Source of the DNA: Opitutaceae bacterium
Lineage (GTDB): Bacteria > Verrucomicrobiota > Verrucomicrobiae > Opitutales > Opitutaceae
Assembly: GCA_031266495.1 (NCBI GenBank)
Contig: JAISAX010000768.1
Span: 1 to 10,023, forward strand
DNA: 10,023 nt
Reading direction: 5' to 3'
Numbering within the stretch: position 1 is the first letter of the stretch; the number at the start of each line of letters is the position of its first letter. Positions 1 to 10,023 of this stretch are shown piece after piece. A model generated the notes under the pieces. It was given only the letters and a program-made list of their open reading frames with translations, did no database searches and was not told where the DNA came from. Position numbers and translations under genes: made by a program.

Positions 1-1422
1 CTCCCCCCCCCCCCCTCAGTCCGATCTTGCTCCATCACCGCCAACCTGCTGCGAAAATATGCGCAACCGGCGCCCCGCTACACCTCGTACCCCAGCGCCA
101 ATCACTTTACCGACGACCTCGCCGCCGTCGACGTGCGCCGGCTCATCACCGACGACAACGCCGCCGACAACAACAACGCCCCCGCCCTGGCCGCCGCCGC
201 CTCCGGACCGCTCTCGCTGTACTTTCACCTGCCATTTTGCCAGGCGCGCTGCTGGTTCTGCGGTTGTAACAACATCATCACTACACGTGTCGACGCCGCG
301 GCCGAGTATCTCGACGACCTCATCGCGGAGATGTGCCTGACCGGCCGCCTCATCGATCGCTCCCGGCCCGTCACGCAACTCCACCTCGGCGGCGGCACGC
401 CCACGTTTTTCCCGGCCGACCAGCTCACGCGTTTCGCCGAAGCCGCGCACCGGCTTTTCCGTTTCGCGCCCGATGCCGAGATCAGCGTCGAGATCGACCC
501 GCGCCACCTCGACGCGCCCCAGGTGCTGGCCTTCCGCGTGCTCGGCGCCCGCCGCGCCTCGCTCGGCGTGCAGGACACCGACCCGGCCGTGCAGGCCGCC
601 ATCCACCGCGTGCAGCCGCAGTCCGTCAACCGCCGCGCCGTGGACCTCCTGCGCGAGGCCGGATTCACCTCGATCAACGTGGACCTCATCTACGGCCTGC
701 CGCGCCAGACGCTGAAGACGTTCAGCCACACCCTGGACGACGTCATCGCGCTCGACCCCGACCGGCTCTCCATTTTCGGCTACGCCCACATCCCCTCGCT
801 CAAGCCCGCCCAGCGCATCCTCGAACAACAGGAAAACCTGCCCGGCTTCGAAGGGCGCCTCGCCCTGCAACAACTCGCCCACGAACGCCTCCTCGCCGCC
901 GGGTACGTCGATGTAGGGCTCGATCACTACGCCCGCCCCTGCGACGAACTCGCCCGCGCCACGAAGGAAGGAGCCCTGCATCGCAATTTCCAGGGTTACA
1001 GCACGCGCGCCGGCGCCTCGCTCTACGCATTCGGCATCTCGGCGATTTCCTCGACGCCGGAAGGTTACTGGCAAAACAGCAAGGACCTCTTCGCCTGGCG
1101 CGCCGCCATCGCCGCGCGCCGCCTGCCGGCCGAACGCGGCTGGCGGCTGACGCCCGAGGACCGGCGCCGCCGCACGATCATCATGGGCATCATGTGCGAC
1201 CGGCGGCTCGATTTCGGAAAACTCACCCGCGCGCTGGGGAAGGATTTTTCGACGGCCTACGCCGCGGAACTCGCCTCGCTGGCCGACCTCGAAGCCGATG
1301 GTGTAGTGGAGATCGATGACCACGGCCTGCGCGTGACGGAAACCGGCATGCCGCTCCTGCGCGTGGTCGCGCAGCGTTTTGATGCGTACCGCCGCACGGG
1401 TACGCACGCGCAGCCGGTATGA
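1..1422 (+). CDS. hemN: Oxygen-independent coproporphyrinogen III oxidase HemN (5' end at window edge)
   Basis: Radical-SAM enzyme that decarboxylates coproporphyrinogen III to protoporphyrinogen IX in anaerobic haem synthesis, in the cytoplasm. The reading frame is open from base 1. The HemN-type N-terminal segment LLRKYAQPAPRYTSYP begins at base 46, aligning with E. coli HemN around residue 12. The HemN cluster motif CQARCWFCGC (C-x3-C-x2-C-x-C) is at 238-267, which argues against the HemW-like relatives. LHLGGGTPTFF (SAM binding), EIDPRHL, NVDLIYGLPRQT and LHRNFQGYSTRAG follow in the expected order, and a winged-helix-like tail ends the protein. Length is about 470 codons, against 457 residues in E. 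coli. No ATG, GTG or TTG occurs in this frame between base 1 and the GTG at 133, which would remove the conserved RYTSYP segment. The true start is therefore upstream of the window or across the C tract at 3-15. Codons are strongly C-ending, unlike the operon at 4156-9856. Confidence 0.95.
   Translation, partial: LPPPPSVRSCSITANLLRKYAQPAPRYTSYPSANHFTDDLAAVDVRRLITDDNAADNNNAPALAAAASGPLSLYFHLPFCQARCWFCGCNNIITTRVDAAAEYLDDLIAEMCLTGRLIDRSRPVTQLHLGGGTPTFFPADQLTRFAEAAHRLFRFAPDAEISVEIDPRHLDAPQVLAFRVLGARRASLGVQDTDPAVQAAIHRVQPQSVNRRAVDLLREAGFTSINVDLIYGLPRQTLKTFSHTLDDVIALDPDRLSIFGYAHIPSLKPAQRILEQQENLPGFEGRLALQQLAHERLLAAGYVDVGLDHYARPCDELARATKEGALHRNFQGYSTRAGASLYAFGISAISSTPEGYWQNSKDLFAWRAAIAARRLPAERGWRLTPEDRRRRTIIMGIMCDRRLDFGKLTRALGKDFSTAYAAELASLADLEADGVVEIDDHGLRVTETGMPLLRVVAQRFDAYRRTGTHAQPV
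3..15. repeat. Mononucleotide run of 13 C at the 5' end of hemN
   Basis: Thirteen consecutive C. In the hemN frame they would encode prolines immediately before the conserved N-terminus. Such runs are prone to slipped-strand mispairing and to miscounting in sequencing. Because the start codon is not visible downstream in frame, the tract lies either in the first codons or in the 5' untranslated leader. Confidence 0.9.
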
Positions 1423-1725
1423 GTTTTTTCTGCCCGCATTTTATTCCCGCCACCGAACGCTGCGAACGTGTCCGCGCTCCCTGTGTGCCTGGCCGTGCCG
1501 GCTGCGTGGCCGCCCGCAACTCTGTCTTCGCCGTGCCGCCGCAGGAGCGCATCGACGGCGCGGCCCGCCCGCCCAAATATCCGCCCGCTCCGCCCCTGCC
1601 GCCCTTGCGGCCGGGGCGGACGTGAGGAATCGATTGTCTTGGGCAACGCGCCGCGATGCGTGTCGGTTGCCTGTCCGGACGGCCTGACGGGTTTATGGCG
1701 CTACTTCTATATGAAGGCAGATGTG
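1423..1725. other. Convergent intergenic spacer between hemN and the FAD oxidoreductase gene
   Basis: About 300 bases separate the hemN stop from the stop of the oppositely oriented oxidoreductase gene. There is a run of six T at 1424-1429 just after the hemN stop, preceded by an 8-bp inverted repeat in the hemN 3' end (1383-1390 with 1399-1406). The gap of 17 bases between stem and T run is too long for a standard intrinsic terminator. A much stronger hairpin lies at 1590-1619. One open frame of 68 codons (1419-1625) overlaps the hemN stop as ATGA, but its product is rich in Pro, Arg and Ala, matches no family I know, and is probably not a gene. Confidence 0.6.
1590..1619. terminator. Strong GC hairpin, possible bidirectional terminator
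   Basis: The left arm CCGCCCC-T-GCCGC (1590-1602) pairs with the right arm GCGGC-C-GGGGCGG (1607-1619) around a CCTT loop, giving 12 G-C pairs and one T/C mismatch. It sits between two convergent genes, where a terminator for both is expected. Neither strand has a following T run, so it is not a textbook intrinsic terminator. It could also be one copy of a dispersed palindromic repeat. Confidence 0.4.
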
Positions 1726-3075
1726 CTACCGGCATTCCGCTTGCGCCTCGTTGGCGAGTAATCCGGCGCGTGCCTCATGCGGAAGCACATTTCGGGCGTT
1801 CGCCAGAGCCGCCACGCGACCGACGGATTCCCCCATTTGCACGGCGTTGCCTGTGACCCGGTAGCTTGCATGCGCGAAAAAATCCCCGCTGATGCAACGT
1901 CCCGCCAGCATCAGACCGTCCACGTCGGCTGCGATGGCTGCGCGCAACGGGATTTGGTAAGGACGCACCTGGAGATCGCCGTTGGTATAACTTTTACCGC
2001 GCGCCGGATTGGTGCTGTGGATGTCCACGCCAAACGACACGTCGCAAATTGAGTCGGGATGGCGGCGCCCTGCCGTGATATCATCGGCCGTGACCGTATA
2101 AATACCATGGATACGCCGGCCTTCGCGAATGCCGATCTGCGCCGCGGTGGCGACGAGTTGCACTCCCGCCCATGCGCCGCCGGAATGCCGCAGCGCGGAG
2201 ATGATCGCATGGATTTCGGCGCGCGCCCCGATGGTCGCTTGCGTGAGGTCGCCTGCGTCGATCGCCGAACGTCCGTATTGGTGGGTGGCCATCAAGGCAT
2301 AGAGGTCATTGCGAATGTGAAACAGCGTTGGCGATGCGTAGGAGGGGTTGTGACCGTGAGCCTCCAGATGCTTGCGCAGCGCGTGCTTGGCCTCCTCCTG
2401 TTTGCGGGAGTCCCGGGCGTTGTGATATTCGCCGATGGCGTTGGCGTTCACTCCGGTAACAAGCGCCATGAGACTCATCGGTTGCGTCTCGCCGGTTTCC
2501 GGATGGCCGATCTCGAAGCGGCAGCCCGCCCGGGCGGCCAGGTCGCCGTCGCCGCTGGCGTCGATGAACACATTGGCAGACCATGCCTGGCGTCCGCTCC
2601 TGGATTCGACGATGGCGTGAGTGAGCCGGCCTTGCGCCCCGGCCCGCATGTCGGCGTGTGGATCGACGCGCGCGGCGACGACGTGGCTGTGCAGGAACAC
2701 GCGCACACCCGCCTCGGCCGCCATCTCGTCGAGGACGAGTTTCATACATTCGCAATCGTAAGCGGACGATGTAACCATACCGCCGATACGTATGAGGCGT
2801 TCCTTGATTTCGGCCATGAGACCGGTCTTGTTTTCATGGTCGATCAGCCAGCTCAGGCAACCGCTGGTCCACACGCCGCCGAGACAGCCGTGCGCTTCGA
2901 CGAGAGTGACGCGCGCACCTTCACGCGCGGCGGAGACGGCAGCGGCGATGCCGGCGGGACCGCCTCCACACACGAAAACATCGCAGTGGCCGGCAAGCGG
3001 TGTACTGAGGTGTTCGGAGATTGTTTCGGAGTGTGTTCCGGTGATTCCGCACATGGTCACGCATGCTGCCGCCAT
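1726..3075 (-). CDS. FAD-dependent oxidoreductase (FAD_oxidored family)
   Basis: A 449-residue flavoprotein, probably cytoplasmic, with no clear signal peptide. The N-terminal Rossmann dinucleotide fold shows VFVCGGGPAGIAAA (GGGPAG at residues 37-42) and ends in the acidic residue E60 of VTLVEAHG, expected to bind the FAD ribose. The following CLGGVWTSG, the central VFIDASGDGDLAARAGC and the late segment DGLMLAGRCISGDFFAHASYRVTG are typical of the FAD_oxidored group (PF12831), many of whose members are uncharacterised; the late segment closes the FAD site. Substrate is unknown. About 30 residues precede the Rossmann fold. The ATG at 3075 is taken as start, and an internal ATG at codon 8 is possible. 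No Shine-Dalgarno is seen. The gene lies 66 bases downstream of the AraC-type gene on the same strand, so it may share its transcript or be controlled by it. The product could oxidise a sugar-derived metabolite, but this is a guess from context only. Confidence 0.9.
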   Translation of the reverse strand: MAAACVTMCGITGTHSETISEHLSTPLAGHCDVFVCGGGPAGIAAAVSAAREGARVTLVEAHGCLGGVWTSGCLSWLIDHENKTGLMAEIKERLIRIGGMVTSSAYDCECMKLVLDEMAAEAGVRVFLHSHVVAARVDPHADMRAGAQGRLTHAIVESRSGRQAWSANVFIDASGDGDLAARAGCRFEIGHPETGETQPMSLMALVTGVNANAIGEYHNARDSRKQEEAKHALRKHLEAHGHNPSYASPTLFHIRNDLYALMATHQYGRSAIDAGDLTQATIGARAEIHAIISALRHSGGAWAGVQLVATAAQIGIREGRRIHGIYTVTADDITAGRRHPDSICDVSFGVDIHSTNPARGKSYTNGDLQVRPYQIPLRAAIAADVDGLMLAGRCISGDFFAHASYRVTGNAVQMGESVGRVAALANARNVLPHEARAGLLANEAQAECR

Positions 3076-3099
3076 GCATTGCCGGGCATGAACAGGAGA

Positions 3100-3121
3100 T
3101 TCGTGCGAAATGTTACACGAA
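3100..3121. promoter_or_regulatory. Inverted repeat upstream of the FAD oxidoreductase gene
   Basis: TTCGTG (3100-3105) and CACGAA (3116-3121) form a perfect 6-bp inverted repeat with a 10-base spacer, in the 66-base gap between the AraC-type gene and the oxidoreductase gene. It ends about 24 bases before the oxidoreductase ATG. It could be an operator or a small hairpin. TTCGTG also occurs in the divergent promoter region at 4064-4069, and inside the AraC-type coding sequence, so the motif alone is not specific. Confidence 0.3.
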
Positions 3122-3141
3122 ATTGATTCCGTTGCGTGTCG

Positions 3142-4047
3142 TCACTGAGGTGCGTTGCGGTAATCGCGCGGGTTCCGTCCGATGTATTTCGTGAAGAGAC
3201 GCGTGAAATAGGCGGGTGACGCAAAGCCTGTCTTGAGGGCGATTTCGTTGATTGGATGCAGCGTGTCGCGCAGCAGGAGTTGGGCGCGCTCCATGCGCCT
3301 GCTGTTGTAGTAGGTGAGCGGACTGATCCCGTATGTGTGGGTGAATACGCGGCAGAGATGAGGGTAGCTGAAGCCCAGCTTTGTCAGTTCTTCTTCGAGC
3401 GGGAGCCGGGCGGTTTTCACGTCGTCCAGCATCCGGTTGAGTCTCTCCCGGATACGGGCGGCGAGGAGCCGTTGTGCGTCGCCAGTCTCGTTACGGCTGT
3501 TGTCGGATTTCGACAGATACCCCGTCTGTTCTCCGAGCAGATCGATAAGGATTTCGAGCAGCAGCGCGCGGCACGAAGCACGCTCGCGCGCGGTGCCGTT
3601 GTTCCATCGCTCCCTCAGGCGGTCAAAGGCCTGAAAGGTGCTGGCAGGCGCCGGAATCGGACCGTGAAAAACCCTGTCCGCCGGGATAAATTCCGGCGCG
3701 GGTCTCACGAGTTCGGGACGGGGTTTACCGGGGAAATAGCAGTTCACCGGCATCGACGGCAGGAGCGGCGGTTCCTGATAAGCCCAGTCAAAGTGCAGCC
3801 AGCGCAAGACGATTTTCCCTCGCGAAGTCTGGTTGGCGGAGTGCCGCCAGTTGCACGGTTTTATGATGAACGATCCCGGTTCATTCACGATGGGTGCCGC
3901 TCCCTCGAAACGCGTTTCGCAGGATCCCTGCTCCACGAGCACGAGCGACTGGTTGTAGATGATGCGCGTGGGGCCGATCCAGCCGCGTGTCGTTTCGACG
4001 CCGATACTGTGGATGTGGGGGGAAATGAGTTCGATGAAATGAGGCAT
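3142..4047 (-). CDS. AraC-family transcriptional regulator
   Basis: A 301-residue DNA-binding regulator with the usual AraC layout. The N-terminal cupin-like sensing domain covers about residues 15-130 and includes LVLVEQGSCETRFEG and PGSFIIKPCNWRHSA. The C-terminal double helix-turn-helix covers about residues 200-300. The first helix-turn-helix contains LPLEEELTKLGFSYPHLCRV. The second contains the family signature INEIALKTGFASPAYFTRLF followed by GRNPRDYR. The length is normal for AraC regulators with a ligand-binding half. The start is the ATG at 4047; a TTG three codons upstream (4056) is an alternative. The gene is divergent from the glycosidase operon across about 108 bases and is followed by the FAD oxidoreductase gene. 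By analogy with AraC-type sugar regulators it probably activates the operon in response to a carbohydrate; the ligand is unknown. Confidence 0.95.
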   Translation of the reverse strand: MPHFIELISPHIHSIGVETTRGWIGPTRIIYNQSLVLVEQGSCETRFEGAAPIVNEPGSFIIKPCNWRHSANQTSRGKIVLRWLHFDWAYQEPPLLPSMPVNCYFPGKPRPELVRPAPEFIPADRVFHGPIPAPASTFQAFDRLRERWNNGTARERASCRALLLEILIDLLGEQTGYLSKSDNSRNETGDAQRLLAARIRERLNRMLDDVKTARLPLEEELTKLGFSYPHLCRVFTHTYGISPLTYYNSRRMERAQLLLRDTLHPINEIALKTGFASPAYFTRLFTKYIGRNPRDYRNAPQ

Positions 4048-4155
4048 GATTGACAATCGGAGGTTCGTGAAACCTGGTGATCAGATCAAATACGTGCAAG
4101 TATCATCGGGTTTTTCCCATCGTAATCCCGGCGCCGGAGGAAACAGGCTGGTCTC
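4048..4155. promoter_or_regulatory. Divergent promoter region between the AraC-type gene and the glycosidase operon
   Basis: This spacer must hold promoters for both directions. Visible elements are an inverted repeat AGGTT-N5-AACCT (4061-4065 with 4071-4075), a tandem direct repeat GATCAGATCA (4079-4088) overlapping the palindrome TGATCA, and GGAGG at 4136-4140. The GGAGG is 15 bases before the glycosidase ATG, a plausible but slightly distant ribosome binding site. A TTGACA at 4050-4055 has no well-spaced -10 partner. The repeats are candidate regulator sites; which are used cannot be read from sequence. Confidence 0.55.
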
Positions 4156-7100
4156 ATGCTTGTTGCCCGAAACGGAAAAACCTCCCTGTCATCCCGCCGG
4201 TTGCCAGCCATCTGTTTTTCGGCCATCCGCTTCGCGGCATGCATGCTCGCCGGTGGCTTGCTGACAGGGGGCATGTTCGCGGCCCCGGAGGAATGGGGAG
4301 AGGGCCGGCCGCGTCCGGCGGGCGACAACTGGCGATTTTCGTGCCGGTTGGAAAACGTGGGCGCGGATGATGCCGCATGGGTGGAATTGCGCGACGCCAC
4401 CGGCGGCAGGCTTTATCGCGCGGGGGTTGCGGGTGGACGTAGCCGGCTGGAGCAGTGGCAGGCCGGCGCATGGAAGCGGCTTTGGACCGGCGAGCCTCCG
4501 GCCGATGAGGCCGTCACGCGAGGCGGCCTCGGCGCCGCGCGTCGCACGGAGGGCGTCGGTGTATTCTGTTTCAACGGCTACCTTTTCATCGAGGTCGGCG
4601 AGCCGGGCGATGTTCGTCATGTGGTGCCGCCGCCGGATGTAACCGTCCCGGGTGACATTGATCCGAGCACGGGCAAGGTTTTCGAGGCGGGCGCACCGGC
4701 GGGCACGCCTGCGCCAGGCGAGATCGACTGGACGGTGCGCGCGGGAACAAGCGCCGCCGGGGTGAGGCCGCGTATCGTGGATGTTGCTTTTGAAAATGGA
4801 AGCAGGCCGCAGGTGCAAAGGGCTCCGGACGCGCCTCCGTTGCAGCGGGAGGCGATCGCGTGTTATATCCCGTGGTTCCCGGCGGATTTCACCGCGCTTG
4901 GGTATCAACGACAGAATGATTTCCCGGTGGTGCCGCTGCGGGCGGAAGCGGGTTACGATGTGCTGGCGGAGGAGTTTCGACTCATGGCGGCTGGAGGCGT
5001 CACGGTTGTGAGTGCGGACATTGTGTTTTTTACGCCGGACCGGGTGAGGGCAGGCATTGTGACGTTCAAACGATTTTTGAAAACGGCGCGGTCCGCCGGA
5101 TTGGGCGAGTTCAGGGTGGCGCCGTTCGTCGAGCTGAAAAACATCCCGATGGCGGTCGCCGCCGCGCTCTACATGATGGAGCGCATGGGCGACGATCCGG
5201 CGTGGCTGCGCACCGGAAGGCGAGGGGGGGGGGGGGGAGGGGAGGGGGGACTTCCGGTCTTCCTGACGTATCATCATCCGATGCATTTGAAGATGACGCC
5301 GGAACTATGGAGGTCGTTGCTCGAAGGAGTCCGGGAAGGCGGACGCGATGCGTATTGGGTTTACAACTTCGACGGGCTCACGCCTGCCCTGACCGGTCGC
5401 GTGGACAGGAGTGAAGCGGATAAAATCATGCCTGTGTCGGACGCGGTTTTCCATTTTGGAGGAGCTTCGCTGCGGGACAGCGCAGGGTTCACGAAGTTTA
5501 TCCGGGAACAGTTTTCCCAAAAATACCCCAAGGTCGCGGTCGGGGCGTCCGTGCATGTCGGCTACTACGCGGCGCGCACCTACAGCCGGAACTTTATTTC
5601 ACCGCGCCACACCGCGGAGTTGCGCGAGATGTGGACTTTGGCGGAGGAGGGGCGCCCCGATTTCGTCCACCTGACCACGTGGAATGACTGGAACGAGGCG
5701 ACGACGTTCTGCCCGTCGTTTGGCGATGCAGGCAGCCGCCTGGAAATCATGGGACGGCTTCTTGCCGGTTTTCTGGGGAAACCGTTGCCCGAGGGGAAAC
5801 CGGGAGTTCCCGAACTGGTGCTCTCTTACCGCAAGTCGGTCTATCCCGGAGAGCCGCTGAGGCTGGAGGTGTTGCCATTGCCGACGCAAAATCCGGAGCG
5901 ATTGGGCGAGGTGAGGTGCGAGGTGGTGGTCACGGAGGCGGCATCCGGGCGCGTGGTCCTGCGCGCCACGAGTCCGGCGCTGGTCATGGATGCAAGCGCG
6001 GTACGCGGTGCGATGCGTCCCTGGTATGCGGATACGGGAGAGGAAACGGGCGAAAGCGCGCTGCGGGCTCCAGGCGTGCTGCGGGTGGCGGCGCGGGCAT
6101 GGGTTGATGGCCGCGAGATCCGCTACCACCACCTGCCCGACATCGTTGTCAGCGAGCCGGAAGGGAGCAATGACCAGCTTTTTTATTCGGTGCCGCTTCA
6201 CCGTCTTGCCGGACCGGAGAGGCGGGTGCGGCTGGAAATCAATGGACGCGATGGCCGTGACGATGCGAATGGCGGCTTGAATACAAGCACAGTCACAGGC
6301 TCGGGCCTGTATGGCGTGTGTTACGAAGTCTCCGGACCGGGTGCGGCGGATACGCTTGTCGCCGGGATGAAACGCGGGCACCTGATGCGGTTTCTCGCTC
6401 CGCTTTCGTGCGACGGCGCGGAGGTGGTGGAGCTTGATCAGCCGGTGCGCCTGACGACACCGGAGACGAAGGCAATGGCCAGGGCAAACGGACGTGTGTC
6501 GCGCCCGGTCGCGGAGTCATCGGGGCGCTGGACACAGTCGGAGCGCGGGGCGGATTATTTTTCGGCCCTCGCACGCTTCGAGGATGGTTCCTGGGCCTGG
6601 TCGCCAACGGTGCTTGCCACGCCGCCGGTTCCCGCGACTGCGGTTGTGGCCGATTGGGTGTTTTTCGGGCCGAAACCCGCGCTGATGGGCAACGTCGCCG
6701 GGCTCAACAAACCGCGCAACATCATCGAAGACCGCTCGATTTACCGGCAGGATCTTGCGTTGCCCGAAAAGAACGGACTGCGCTTTGTCACACTGCCCGG
6801 CAGCGGGCGCGCCTGCCAGTTTGACGGGAATACGGCGTTGAGGGCCGAGCCGGATACGGCGGGCAACGGGCCGGTTGCCATCGAGGTGCTGTTCAGCCCC
6901 GGCCAGGCCGGACGCCACGAAACGATTTGCTGGCAGCGGGGAGCACAGGCAGGGCTTGTCGTCGATGCGGCAGGACATCTGGTGGCGTCGCGGTTGCCTG
7001 AGCTTCGCAAGCATCCGAAGCCGTTTGTGGAAGCGCTCAGCAAGCGTCCGCTGGAAACGGGACGGTTTTATCATGCGGTGGCGCAGTTCACGGGGTCGGC

Positions 7101-7359
7101 ATTGGAGCTTTGGCTCGACGGCGAGTTGCAGGAGCGCGAACCGTGCGTCGGCACGCGTTCCACGGAAGGATTTTCCATCGGCGGCAATTCCGGCGGGCGC
7201 GCCGCAGCCACCGCGGTGGACGAAATGCCATCCGAAGGATTTTTCACCGGTCGCCTCGCCAGGCTGACCGTTTACGGACGGGGTCTGCCCGAATCCGCCG
7301 TCAAGGATCTCCACCGCGCCGCCAGGCAACTCCCTTTTTTTGAGACGAACCCACAATGA
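4156..7359 (+). CDS. Secreted GH71/GH99-like glycoside hydrolase with C-terminal LamG-like domain
   Basis: A 1067-residue exported protein, probably cutting an extracellular polysaccharide. A signal peptide fits residues 1-43: Arg-rich start, hydrophobic FAACMLAGGLLTGGMFAA, then APEEW. An N-terminal beta-rich region (about 45-225) precedes a TIM-barrel-like domain (about 230-540). That domain begins IACYIPWFPADF and includes VVSADIVFF, LPVFLTYHHPMH, YWVYNFDGL and TTWNDWNEATTF (W509, D511, E514). The D-x-x-E spacing resembles the paired acidic residues of GH99-type enzymes (inference). Beta-sandwich segments follow. A LamG/ConA-like domain lies at about 890-1055, with IEVLFSP, FYHAVAQFTGSALELWLDGE and FFTGRLARLTVYGRGL. 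A glycine stretch at residues 357-365 is encoded by a G14 tract inside the catalytic domain. It is probably the first gene of the operon: it overlaps the next gene by four bases and faces the AraC-type gene. The family assignment is tentative, but secretion and carbohydrate context are well supported. Confidence 0.8.
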   Translation: MLVARNGKTSLSSRRLPAICFSAIRFAACMLAGGLLTGGMFAAPEEWGEGRPRPAGDNWRFSCRLENVGADDAAWVELRDATGGRLYRAGVAGGRSRLEQWQAGAWKRLWTGEPPADEAVTRGGLGAARRTEGVGVFCFNGYLFIEVGEPGDVRHVVPPPDVTVPGDIDPSTGKVFEAGAPAGTPAPGEIDWTVRAGTSAAGVRPRIVDVAFENGSRPQVQRAPDAPPLQREAIACYIPWFPADFTALGYQRQNDFPVVPLRAEAGYDVLAEEFRLMAAGGVTVVSADIVFFTPDRVRAGIVTFKRFLKTARSAGLGEFRVAPFVELKNIPMAVAAALYMMERMGDDPAWLRTGRRGGGGGGEGGLPVFLTYHHPMHLKMTPELWRSLLEGVREGGRDAYWVYNFDGLTPALTGRVDRSEADKIMPVSDAVFHFGGASLRDSAGFTKFIREQFSQKYPKVAVGASVHVGYYAARTYSRNFISPRHTAELREMWTLAEEGRPDFVHLTTWNDWNEATTFCPSFGDAGSRLEIMGRLLAGFLGKPLPEGKPGVPELVLSYRKSVYPGEPLRLEVLPLPTQNPERLGEVRCEVVVTEAASGRVVLRATSPALVMDASAVRGAMRPWYADTGEETGESALRAPGVLRVAARAWVDGREIRYHHLPDIVVSEPEGSNDQLFYSVPLHRLAGPERRVRLEINGRDGRDDANGGLNTSTVTGSGLYGVCYEVSGPGAADTLVAGMKRGHLMRFLAPLSCDGAEVVELDQPVRLTTPETKAMARANGRVSRPVAESSGRWTQSERGADYFSALARFEDGSWAWSPTVLATPPVPATAVVADWVFFGPKPALMGNVAGLNKPRNIIEDRSIYRQDLALPEKNGLRFVTLPGSGRACQFDGNTALRAEPDTAGNGPVAIEVLFSPGQAGRHETICWQRGAQAGLVVDAAGHLVASRLPELRKHPKPFVEALSKRPLETGRFYHAVAQFTGSALELWLDGELQEREPCVGTRSTEGFSIGGNSGGRAAATAVDEMPSEGFFTGRLARLTVYGRGLPESAVKDLHRAARQLPFFETNPQ
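5224..5249 (+). repeat. G-rich tract (G14-A-G4-A-G6) inside the glycosidase gene
   Basis: Fourteen consecutive G (5224-5237) are followed by A, GGGG, A and GGGGGG. At its present length it is in frame and encodes a Gly-rich run with one Glu between LRTGRR and LPVFLTYHH. One extra G would shift into a frame ending at the TGA at 5412-5414. One fewer would hit the TGA at 5264-5266. Either removes the TWNDWNE motif and the LamG-like domain. The sequence can also form a G-quadruplex on the coding strand and in the mRNA. Confidence 0.9.
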
Positions 7360-8240
7360 ACGAACAATCTGCATGTTTCCGGCCAATGCGAGCGCTTCCC
7401 GTGCTCGCTTGTATCATGATGTCAGTGACAAACGGCGCGATCGGGGATGCCGCTTCGGATGCTGGCCGGGCTGTTTACGATGGCTTTGATTATCGCACGG
7501 ATGCGCTCGATGGTTCCGATGGGGGAGAGGGGCCGTGGAAAACGGAATGGCGGAAGAGCGCGGCCGGCGGAGTGGCGCTGCTGGCTCCGGGATTTGAATA
7601 CAAAGACGGCGACGGTTGGCAACTGGCGGCCCACGGTCGGCATGCGCAGGTCGGGGGCAGTGTCACGGCGGGCGCGTATCGTGATTTCGATGCCAGCGCC
7701 GCCGGCTTGACTCCCGGCGGCGAAGATGGCGACGGAAAGGCGGTTCTCTGGATGTCGTTCCTGGCGCGGATCGAGGGCGGCCCCTTTGAGAATAGCGGTG
7801 ACGAGGTTTCGTTCCAATTACGCGCGGCCAAGGACGCGCCGTTGCTGACCGTTGGCGTGATGGGGCGGCTGAACGAGTGGCGCATCCGGGCGGAGGGCCT
7901 CACGAAAGTCTTTTCCCGGGGAGCGGCCAAACGCCCGCCCGAAATGTTTTCTTGGATCGTGATCCGGGTGGACGTGGACAGTGCGCCCGGCGCGTCCGAC
8001 GCAGTGCATCTCTGGGTAAATCCGCGCGGTTCGCGCGAGCCATCCGTCTCCTTGGCCAATGCCCGCATCGTCGGGCAAGATTTTTGGGGTGCGGAGCATC
8101 CGTTCTTGCCGGTGCGTTTGCGAATCGGAACCATCGCCACGACGAAGGGCGGTCCGGAAAAACGTCTTGCCTGGGACGAGATACGACTGGGGCGAAGCTT
8201 TGCCGATGTAGCTCCGGCGGCGCGCGTGCCGGGCGATTGA
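7356..8240 (+). CDS. Secreted jelly-roll-like protein, paralogue of the next gene, without sorting anchor
   Basis: A 294-residue exported protein with a hydrophobic leader (about residues 13-24, LPVLACIMMSVT). The ATG overlaps the glycosidase stop as ATGA, indicating translational coupling; a second ATG at 7386 (residue 11) would give a more compact signal peptide. The mature part matches the next gene product along most of its length. Shared segments are VYDGFDY near the start of the mature protein, WMSFLARI, LLTVGVMGRLNEWR, IRVDVDSAPGASDAVHLWVNP, LRIGTI and WDEIRLGRSFADVAP. The pattern suggests a beta-sandwich of the LamG/ConA type, so sugar binding is plausible but unproven. It stops with AARVPGD exactly where the paralogue continues into its PEP-CTERM segment, so it is probably secreted and not sorted. 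I do not recognise a named family for the pair. Confidence 0.85.
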   Translation: MNEQSACFRPMRALPVLACIMMSVTNGAIGDAASDAGRAVYDGFDYRTDALDGSDGGEGPWKTEWRKSAAGGVALLAPGFEYKDGDGWQLAAHGRHAQVGGSVTAGAYRDFDASAAGLTPGGEDGDGKAVLWMSFLARIEGGPFENSGDEVSFQLRAAKDAPLLTVGVMGRLNEWRIRAEGLTKVFSRGAAKRPPEMFSWIVIRVDVDSAPGASDAVHLWVNPRGSREPSVSLANARIVGQDFWGAEHPFLPVRLRIGTIATTKGGPEKRLAWDEIRLGRSFADVAPAARVPGD

Positions 8241-8319
8241 GAATCACGATCATTTTCCCGTTCGGGTAACCGGATGGCTTACCAACAAACATACAAAATC
8301 CCAACCGCACTTCTGTTTT

Positions 8320-9183
8320 ATGAAACCAGACATTGCATCCTCCTCCCGGCGTTTTGTCGCCGGTTTATTTGCCGCACTGCTCCTGCCGTTTTCCGCAACG
8401 GCGTCCGTCCTGCTTTACGACGGATTTGATTATGAGGCAGGTTCGCTTGCCGGGAAAAACGGTGGCGAGGGCTTCAAAACCGCGTGGACGAATTCAGGCG
8501 CGTCCACGGCTAATGACGTCATTGCGAGCGGATCGTCATATACCGATGCCGGCGGCAACGATCTCTTCGTGAAAGGCGGCAAACTTGTCGTTTCAGCGGC
8601 GAACAGCGGAATTTATCGCACGCTTGATTCCATAACCGCGGCAACCAATGCCACGACGACCTGGTGGCTCTCGTTCATTGGCAACACCAGTGGCACGCCG
8701 GCAGGCGGGGCAGCCAATAACGCGGTGCTCTTATTGCGTGATGGCAATACGGAATTGCTTTCGGTCGGAGCGATCGGCGGGTCGAATGCATGGCGCGTGA
8801 GCAGCAACGCAACCTACAGTTCCACCAATGTCGCGGCATCAACATCGGAGGCATTTGTCGTGATTCGTATCGATGTTGACACGACTACGGGTGGCGCGGA
8901 CTCCATCCATCTCTGGCTCAATCCGGACATCGGTGGCGAGGCTCCTCTGGCTTCCACTGCCGCCAGCTCCATCACAGGCAACTTTTGGGATGTATTTTCC
9001 CTCAATCTCCTGCGCATTGGCGCCTCGGGCAGCTTCACTGGCATAGCCCTGGATGAATTGCGCCTGGGCACGGATTTCGCCTCGGTGGCGCCGCAGGCGG
9101 TGCCCGAACCTGCCGTGCTTGCGACGCTGTTTGGCGGGGTCGCGCTATTGGCTGCGCTTGTCTCCCGCCGATCCGGAAAATAA
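8320..9183 (+). CDS. PEP-CTERM surface-sorted jelly-roll-like protein
   Basis: A 287-residue exported protein. Its signal peptide is RRFVAGLFAALLLPFSATA, with cleavage likely after A28. The mature part begins SVLLYDGFDYEAGSL and parallels the preceding gene product: WWLSFIGN, ELLSVGAIGGSNAWR, IRIDVDTTTGGADSIHLWLNP, LRIGASG and LDELRLGTDFASVAP. The C-terminus is a clear PEP-CTERM signal at residues 261-287: VPEP, hydrophobic LATLFGGVALLAALV, then SRRSGK. Such proteins are recognised by an exosortase (not in this window) and delivered to the outer surface or extracellular matrix. The mature domain is rich in Ser, Thr, Ala, Gly and Asn, typical of PEP-CTERM cargo. It starts 79 bases after the preceding stop, with no visible Shine-Dalgarno, and is probably in the same operon. 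It may be a lectin-like partner of the glycosidase (inference). Confidence 0.9.
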   Translation: MKPDIASSSRRFVAGLFAALLLPFSATASVLLYDGFDYEAGSLAGKNGGEGFKTAWTNSGASTANDVIASGSSYTDAGGNDLFVKGGKLVVSAANSGIYRTLDSITAATNATTTWWLSFIGNTSGTPAGGAANNAVLLLRDGNTELLSVGAIGGSNAWRVSSNATYSSTNVAASTSEAFVVIRIDVDTTTGGADSIHLWLNPDIGGEAPLASTAASSITGNFWDVFSLNLLRIGASGSFTGIALDELRLGTDFASVAPQAVPEPAVLATLFGGVALLAALVSRRSGK

Positions 9184-9220
9184 CTACGCCTGTTCGCTTT
9201 CTCTCACCATTCCCGGGATT

Positions 9221-9856
9221 ATGAAAAATCGTGCCTTCACCCTTGTCGAACTGCTCACGGTAATCGCCATCATCAGCATCCTTGCGGCAATCATCATTCC
9301 CGTGACCGGCCGGGTGCGGGAGCAGGCAAGGACCACCCGTTGCCTGGCGCAGATGAGGCAGGTTGGCAGTGCGTTCCTGATGTATGTGAACGACAATCGC
9401 GGCAACCTTCCCGTGCAGAGCACGTACGAGGCAACGTGGAATGCGGAGGGGAGCTGGACGTTCGCGTTGTTCCCCTACGTCGATAACAGGGCTTTGTTCA
9501 CTTGTCCGGAAAATCAGACGAAGCAGGTGGACGACCGGGTGCCGGTAAACCCGTTGTATAACCCCTATGCTTCGGCGCGGCTGACGTCTCCGGTTGGAAC
9601 GCCCATCAATGTGTCTCGTTCACAGAAACCGACGCGTGATGTGATAATGATCGAAGAATGGTATGCGACGTTGGGGAAATCGCACACGGCGTCGGCGGAG
9701 GCGAATCCTGCTACTGCGCCACATTTGTATCCGCATGATGGAAAGACAAAGCGGTCCACTTTGTTTTTGGATGGTCATGTGAAACTGACGCCTCGCGGAG
9801 GCATTTTGCATAATGGCGTCCCTGGCCAGTGCGAATGGGAGTGGCCGCGGTTCTAG
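9221..9856 (+). CDS. Prepilin-type (type II secretion pseudopilin-like) protein
   Basis: A 211-residue protein with a type IV prepilin leader, MKNRA-FTLVELLTVIAIIS. Peptidase cleavage is expected between A5 and F6, with the required Glu at +5 (E10) and a single N-terminal membrane helix (residues 6-28). The -1 residue is Ala and not the usual Gly. The C-terminal part has CPENQT, DVIMIEEWY and TLFLDGHVKLTPRG. This is the DGHV ending of the large prepilin-like family of Planctomycetota, Verrucomicrobiota and Lentisphaerota (often called H-X9-DG). Here the spacing from the nearest His to DG is 11, not 9. The open frame extends upstream to 9053, but the ATG at 9221 is the only start that places the leader correctly. 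It lies 37 bases after the PEP-CTERM gene stop and is likely the last gene of the operon. Role: an envelope pseudopilin, perhaps in secreting or displaying the operon's products. Confidence 0.93.
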   Translation: MKNRAFTLVELLTVIAIISILAAIIIPVTGRVREQARTTRCLAQMRQVGSAFLMYVNDNRGNLPVQSTYEATWNAEGSWTFALFPYVDNRALFTCPENQTKQVDDRVPVNPLYNPYASARLTSPVGTPINVSRSQKPTRDVIMIEEWYATLGKSHTASAEANPATAPHLYPHDGKTKRSTLFLDGHVKLTPRGGILHNGVPGQCEWEWPRF

Positions 9857-10023
9857 CCTGCCTGTTTCACACGAAGGAGCGCCTGCCTCGTAGCTGCGAA
9901 CGTAAGGAACCGTAAGGAAATAAACAGAGCGAAGATGCGCGGGGATTGAAGAGCGAGCCAAGGAGCTGGCGAGGGAGTTTACCGGATTGGGAATAAATGA
10001 CCGAGTCAGCGACGCTGGATCGC
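9857..10023. other. Right-edge region with short direct repeats and no convincing gene
   Basis: No terminator is evident after the prepilin gene. GCCTGCCT occurs at 9856-9863 and again at 9881-9888. A near-perfect 10-base tandem repeat lies at 9901-9920. On the plus strand an ATG at 9997 opens MTESATLDR and runs off the edge, and could be the start of a further gene. On the minus strand a frame is open from the edge to a stop at 9867-9869 (51 residues, ending RSFV), of low complexity. Neither can be called a gene from what is present. The region may be the edge of a dispersed repeat. Confidence 0.5.
9901..9920. repeat. Tandem 10-base repeat
   Basis: Two adjacent units, CGTAAGGAAC and CGTAAGGAAA, differ only in the last base. 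They lie 44 bases after the prepilin stop. Function unknown; they may mark the border of a repeated intergenic element. Confidence 0.6.

Follow-up and report, generated by a model that had tools for sequence, protein, structure and literature searches.

A G14 tract in a glycosidase gene of an Opitutaceae bacterium: more likely a product of genome-wide G-tract growth than a dedicated switch

The run of 14 G residues found in a glycosidase gene of an Opitutaceae bacterium (within a contig stretch of 10,023 nucleotides, here called the window) has more likely arisen as a by-product of unusual G-tract growth across the genome than as a dedicated switch. We put the probability at about three in four that it belongs to a genome-wide set of proliferated G:C homopolymers which selection usually keeps in frame, with switching as a possible side effect. 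The comparison is made mainly with Geminisphaera colitermitum TAV2, a termite-gut bacterium of the same genus as Opitutaceae bacterium TAV5, and we infer that the genome of the window shares the TAV2 condition, that the window tract slips, and that switching at it is not selected. Within its 10 kb (too short a stretch to define a density) the window contains two G:C runs of 13 or more, which would be in line with the density in TAV2 and not with that in TAV5, and G14 has the same polar signature as the TAV2 tracts (below), so we take it as one of many. Two tracts and a signature in common are the basis of this transfer from TAV2 to the window, and the nearest relative, TAV5, lacks the excess.

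The gene (4156-7359, plus strand; open reading frame and profile matches) encodes a secreted-type GH99/GH71-like enzyme of 1067 amino acids with a C-terminal LamG-like domain, and its signal peptide was judged by eye only. G14 lies at 5224-5237 on the plus strand by direct reading and encodes part of a run of six glycines (residues 357-362) that falls within the weak GH99 match (residues 269-518). It is followed at 5238-5250, also on the plus strand and read directly, by an interrupted G-rich tail of the form A-GGGG-A-GGGGGG-A (AGGGGAGGGGGGA up to 5250, with A at 5238, 5243 and 5250), which agrees with the polar signature, G(n)-A-GGG, seen in TAV2 tracts. The window has 13 matches to G8 or C8 when overlapping matches are counted, and none of 200 dinucleotide-preserving shuffles reached 13 (mean 0.95, maximum 7).

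The initial annotation of this DNA had placed G14 in the catalytic domain, in frame only at this length or in steps of three, and computed translation agrees with it as follows: the full frame is retained at 14 G and when three G are removed or added; loss of one G leads to a TGA at 5264-5266 (plus strand, product 369 aa) and gain of one to a TGA at 5412-5414 (plus strand, product 419 aa); and both stops are, as it had stated, upstream of the TTWNDWNE motif (residues 507-514) and of the LamG-like match (residues 896-1047). The overlap that it reported with the next open reading frame (294 aa, 7356-8240, plus strand) is also present, that frame starting within the glycosidase stop as ATGA (7356-7359); its product has no Pfam or NCBIfam match at E 0.001. 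The G14 locus thus has a long tract within an open reading frame and, in computed translation, a product that a length change turns on or off, both of which are properties of contingency loci. The annotation had suggested on these grounds a possible on/off switch for the enzyme, with lowered expression of the next gene as a possible consequence. Read as selected phase variation, slippage at G14 would switch the secreted enzyme and also, by way of the ATGA overlap, the gene that follows. The computed truncation of the enzyme ahead of both the motif and the C-terminal domain by any one-base change is in favor of this, but the homologues of the gene and the distribution of tracts in TAV2 (both below) make it an unlikely explanation.

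The second long tract of the window, absent from the initial annotation, is a C13 homopolymer at 3-15 (plus strand, direct reading) near the N-terminus of the open frame of hemN, the gene for oxygen-independent coproporphyrinogen III oxidase (1-1422, plus strand; TIGR00538, 474.7 bits), which is cut by the contig start. On the minus strand it reads G13, then AG, and then the contig end, so G13-AG is all that it shows of the polar signature (G-run, A, GGG), which is complete in G14-AGGGG. TAV5 has CCTCCCCCTTTGCC at the position of C13 (C5 by eye). The contig starts only two bases before C13, as if the assembly broke at the tract. Elsewhere in the window are genes for an FAD-dependent oxidoreductase (PF12831, 314 bits; 1726-3075, minus strand), an AraC-type regulator (3142-4056, minus strand) that is divergent from the glycosidase gene, a protein with a PEP-CTERM-like VPEP...RRSGK tail (8320-9183; NF038129 at 23.6 bits, below the cut-off) and a prepilin-like protein (9221-9856) that matches PF07963 and PF07596 (DUF1559). 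The final 167 bases (9857-10023) have no alignment to the TAV5 region behind the pilin-like gene or to the TAV2 and TAV5 samples (below).

What kind of enzyme carries the tract? From its matches we call it putatively GH99/GH71-like and file it in neither family. Its Pfam GH99 match (PF16317) is weak, 24.2 bits against a curated cut-off of 33, its LamG match is borderline at 27.2 bits against 27.6, and GH71 is weakly matched in all 10 of 10 members; the sub-threshold Pfam score and the GH71 matches set it apart from the GH99 endo-alpha-mannosidases. Its likeness to them is the match of its family profile, built from ten homologues, to human and bacterial-type endo-alpha-mannosidase structures (PDB 6zdc and 4acy, E 1.9e-5 to 4.2e-5), over the half of the barrel that has the WN(D/E)W(N/H)E motif at its end. 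All 10 aligned rows have D511 and E514, and the solved enzyme has E at both aligned places; the window thus has Asp511 where the human enzyme has the Glu of FNEW. The two places are presumably those of the catalytic Glu pair of GH99. Structure models of the enzyme are weak (mean pLDDT 64.1 and 52.8), and a Foldseek search with the first of these returned no endo-alpha-mannosidase among the 50 matches listed. In the same weak model (mean 64.1) residues 357-362 have pLDDT below 50 and are between a helix (330-344) and a strand (367-373), so that the Gly run is predicted to sit in a helix-to-strand loop. Such loops in a barrel face away from the active site.

The closest homologue of the enzyme is the TAV5 protein OPIT5_25280 (92% identical; the two genes share 93% of their DNA letters). 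Two blocks of the window can be aligned to TAV5 DNA, 25-1626 (93.1%) and 1778-9856 (90.8%). Gene order is unchanged, and synteny extends over 25-9856, broken by about 150 bases at 1627-1777 that do not align. At the tract site TAV5 reads GAGGGGAGACGGGTGGGCTT and the window GAG14AGGGGAGGGGGGACTT, a net gain of 12 nt in the window that is accompanied by substitutions as well as the difference in run length. The Gly run is found in none of nine homologous proteins aligned, among which the length of the loop varies. The homologue alignment that had been proposed with the initial annotation as a check on the Gly stretch shows it to be an insertion, and one that is not kept at this locus in relatives (TAV5 DNA and the nine proteins), which argues against selected phase variation. 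The TAV2 orthologue is 73% identical and has no in-gene run of at least 9; the nearest long tract is a G18 upstream of the gene and outside it. This G18 (L001:5724-5741) is about 15 bases from the apparent start, judged by eye, of a divergent araC-type gene. A search of plasmid DNA with the glycosidase gene gave no match.

Counting both strands, TAV2 has 1,587 runs of 10 or more G in 5.7 Mb and TAV5 has 50 in 7.4 Mb. We also surveyed 200 genomes of the family and 387 of the phylum, each set drawn evenly out of a larger group. Among the 200 Opitutaceae genomes TAV2 has the most runs of at least 10, followed by genomes with 86, 80, 60 and 54, and among the 387 phylum genomes, 182 of which have any run of at least 12, TAV2 has 1,180 of these and the next genomes 88, 78 and 45. 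In 776,997 sampled bases of TAV2 and 1,200,000 of TAV5 there are 271 and 17 runs of at least 9, and 139 (178.9 per Mb) and 0 runs of at least 13, respectively. Di- to heptanucleotide repeats are not raised in the TAV2 sample, and A/T runs of at least 9 are slightly more numerous (7 in its 777 kb against 0 in the 1.2 Mb from TAV5); the TAV2 excess is almost confined to G:C mononucleotides. Literature searches gave no recognisable account of such tracts in Verrucomicrobiota, and they go unmentioned in the genome announcements of TAV3 and TAV4 (PMC6952651) and of TAV5.

Where in the TAV2 genome do the tracts fall? Gene calls in the sample come from a home-made finder (483 genes, coding fraction 77.5%), and 141 of the 271 tracts (52.0%) are in genes against 76.8% of random positions, so tracts are depleted in genes; they are enriched in co-directional intergenic space (33.9% against 13.9% of random positions). 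The 76 tracts in this intergenic class have a median distance of 26 nt from the upstream stop and 69.5 nt from the downstream start (p 0.009), and the C is mostly on the sense strand. Genes with 0, 1, 2, 3 and 4 tracts number 370, 88, 22, 2 and 1, and a Poisson distribution by gene length predicts 366.9, 95.3, 17.0, 2.9 and 0.6; tracts per gene are thus near-Poisson (dispersion 1.12), and their spacing is slightly clumped relative to random (CV 1.3, KS p 0.03). The genes with tracts include hemC and dnaG. TAV2 HemC has two poly-Pro runs. The first, together with its flank, forms an insertion of 11 columns that none of the 11 aligned sequences from outside TAV2 has; the second is in a loop of variable length anyway. 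TAV2 dnaG carries G10 and C13 tracts. TAV2 tracts are therefore not concentrated in surface, secreted or regulated genes, as judged from their near-Poisson scatter and their presence in hemC and dnaG and not from counts of gene classes. Both this scatter and the tracts in essential genes weigh against selected phase variation, and the suggestion that the tract is a switch specific to the glycosidase finds no support in these observations or in the tract-less site in the TAV5 orthologue and the nine homologues.

The sense strand has the C in 109 of 142 in-gene TAV2 tracts (109 to 33), and among runs of 5-6 the ratio is 755 to 192. This bears on the idea that a quadruplex in DNA or RNA was selected to control transcription or translation, any coding effect being secondary. 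The sequence is quadruplex-capable, as is any G14, but the orientation of the TAV2 tracts follows background composition, and tracts are depleted in genes, scattered, and unconserved at the window site, so we give this idea hardly any weight.

Is the frame kept when tracts form in genes? A protein test was possible for 20 of 315 TAV2 tracts of at least 8, those spanned by a single TAV5 protein with matches on both sides (some at only 29-36% identity). The frame is kept in 18 of the 20, and in 13 of the 15 that are at least 9 long, where 5 would be expected by chance (one third; p 3e-5). An earlier composition classifier, which was crude, of low sensitivity and later replaced, called 6 of 29 in-gene tracts shifted and 23 same-frame (132 classified), with 35 of 1,404 in-gene controls shifted. 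The tracts that appeared out of frame (6/29 and 2/15) may be OFF states or may belong to dead genes; this minority speaks against our reading and is what selected phase variation would lead one to expect, but the majority of testable tracts are in frame, which counts against it.

Comparison of DnaG between strains shows that such tracts differ in length. TAV3 DnaG is 99% identical to that of TAV2 and, in the proteins compared, has one more Pro at C13 and a Gly in place of Trp at G10; a one-residue indel outside the tracts (GEDWPG in TAV2, GEWPG in TAV3) cancels the length difference. The one-Pro difference indicates that tract length differs between close strains, and variation in tracts of this class is a further point on the side of phase variation. 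Of the phase-switch reading in the initial annotation, then, the tract itself, the consequences of frame loss and a strain difference in length for a tract of the same class all stand, and a switch special to the glycosidase is not supported. A DNA primase from JGI (P0134, protein only) carries extra Gly-rich sequence at the site of the TAV2 G10, and within a Gly run its C-terminus diverges from those of its relatives, as though a G tract had shifted the frame; its identity to the TAV1 protein is 84%, and it was therefore left unassigned to the species of the window.

Could the tract, or its exact length, be a consensus error of sequencing or assembly? Homopolymers are error-prone and the position of the contig start next to C13 points the same way, but we consider such an error very unlikely for the following reasons: the full frame is open at a length of 14; 13 of the 15 testable TAV2 tracts are in frame (above); the TAV5 site differs by substitutions and not by run length alone; and DnaG of TAV3, an independent genome determined by Illumina and PacBio sequencing (PMC6952651), has the same Pro and Gly runs, so the tracts are not peculiar to one assembly.

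The flanks of the tracts are asymmetric. On the G strand, the 268 TAV2 tracts are followed by A in 83% and by AGGG in 43% of cases, and GGGA precedes in 12%; for TAV2 runs of at least 15 the values for AGGG after and GGGA before are 39% and 4%, and for runs of G5-6 they are 3% and 6%. We read this polarity as polar growth that leaves decayed repeats on the 3' side. Fourteen aligned DNA pairs (from the 315 tracts of at least 8) have net length differences of -12 to +34, and in three of the 14 the difference is zero. Tract formation thus involves both insertion and substitution, and the equal-length replacements in these three pairs go beyond what simple slippage accounts for.

Several candidate causes of tract growth were considered. 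Loss of MutS as a general mutator was rejected, as TAV2 MutS is open over the length aligned with TAV5. Loss of MutL is a candidate: the N-terminal part of TAV2 mutL (model positions 1-333 of 555) stops 76 bases before a contig end, and a search of the TAV2 assembly for the C-terminal domain of TAV5 MutL gave no match, which may be a mere assembly gap. This mutL (L060, contig C11, 38297-40871) is cut in its Pro-rich linker, 29 bases past a C9 run. General microsatellite instability was rejected because other repeat classes are not raised apart from the few A/T runs (7 against 0), loss of a DinG-type helicase because matches are present in TAV2 and TAV5 alike, and strand-directed growth because the excess of C on the sense strand equals the short-run background. 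GC skew tracks gene strand, so replication and transcription are inseparable by it.

The growth of the tracts can be pictured as follows: purine-rich seeds such as GGGGAG (the TAV5 state) would grow into long G runs by insertion and substitution, the growth being polar with A interruptions and then G on the 3' side of the G strand, and within genes selection would usually retain frame-preserving lengths. In the window, a loop that tolerates changes in length would have gained a net four codons of Gly-rich sequence. G14 would be expected to be length-labile, with an occasional frameshifted, truncated enzyme as a likely by-product and perhaps lowered expression of the ATGA-coupled downstream gene as well, and the tract probably does not owe its presence to selection for a glycosidase switch.

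It is usual to interpret homopolymer contingency sites as switches that were selected in a few surface genes. How do the tracts described here compare with known systems? With poly-G/C contingency loci such as those of Campylobacter (PMC6321876) they share long G:C homopolymers that are mostly in open reading frames, a frame-dependent product, and length differences between strains of the kind found between TAV2 and TAV3. That paper gives 18-39 phase-variable genes per C. jejuni strain, whereas in TAV2 about 1,600 runs of 10 or more are in near-random scatter, with hemC and dnaG included. The poly-G/poly-C tracts of Caenorhabditis (PMC2211496) resemble those of TAV2 in their genome-wide excess, their dispersal and the lack of conservation of their positions between related species. 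In the 100 Mb of C. elegans, 396 tracts reach a length of 18 or more, most of them intronic or intergenic (PMC2211496). The 0.777 Mb sampled from TAV2 contain 21 of this length (27 per Mb), and they come from a gene-dense genome in which about half of all tracts are in genes. The C. elegans tracts depend on DOG-1; matches to DinG-type helicases occur in TAV2 as well as in TAV5. The short homopolymers of Orsi 2010 (PMC2831843), presented as a regulatory device general to prokaryotes, are likewise frameshift-prone coding tracts of no clear functional class, but there poly(A)/poly(T) of 3-7 bases is over-represented and poly(C)/poly(G) mostly under-represented, and the TAV2 excess is one of very long G:C runs only. 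In Propionibacterium acnes, also a secreted-protein setting, poly-G/C phase variation is reported for adhesins and not for glycoside hydrolases (PMC3224659).

We tentatively suggest, as a broader possibility that we hold somewhat less probable than its opposite, a lineage in which G:C-specific polar homopolymer growth has seeded about two thousand long tracts, coding and non-coding, so that roughly one quarter of genes, housekeeping genes included, would carry a frameshift site held in frame by selection. This would be a near-whole-genome contingency state and not a set of loci, and the window would show this growth at work in a third species, close to TAV5. The TAV2 tracts outnumber those of the next most tract-rich genome surveyed in the phylum by an order of magnitude, and tracts that are this abundant, occur in essential genes and are scattered near-randomly separate a mutational process from selection for switching. 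A single tract should therefore not be named a switch without its genome background, and the G:C specificity and polarity of the tracts are testable handles on the mechanism of tract growth, the TAV strains being cultured.
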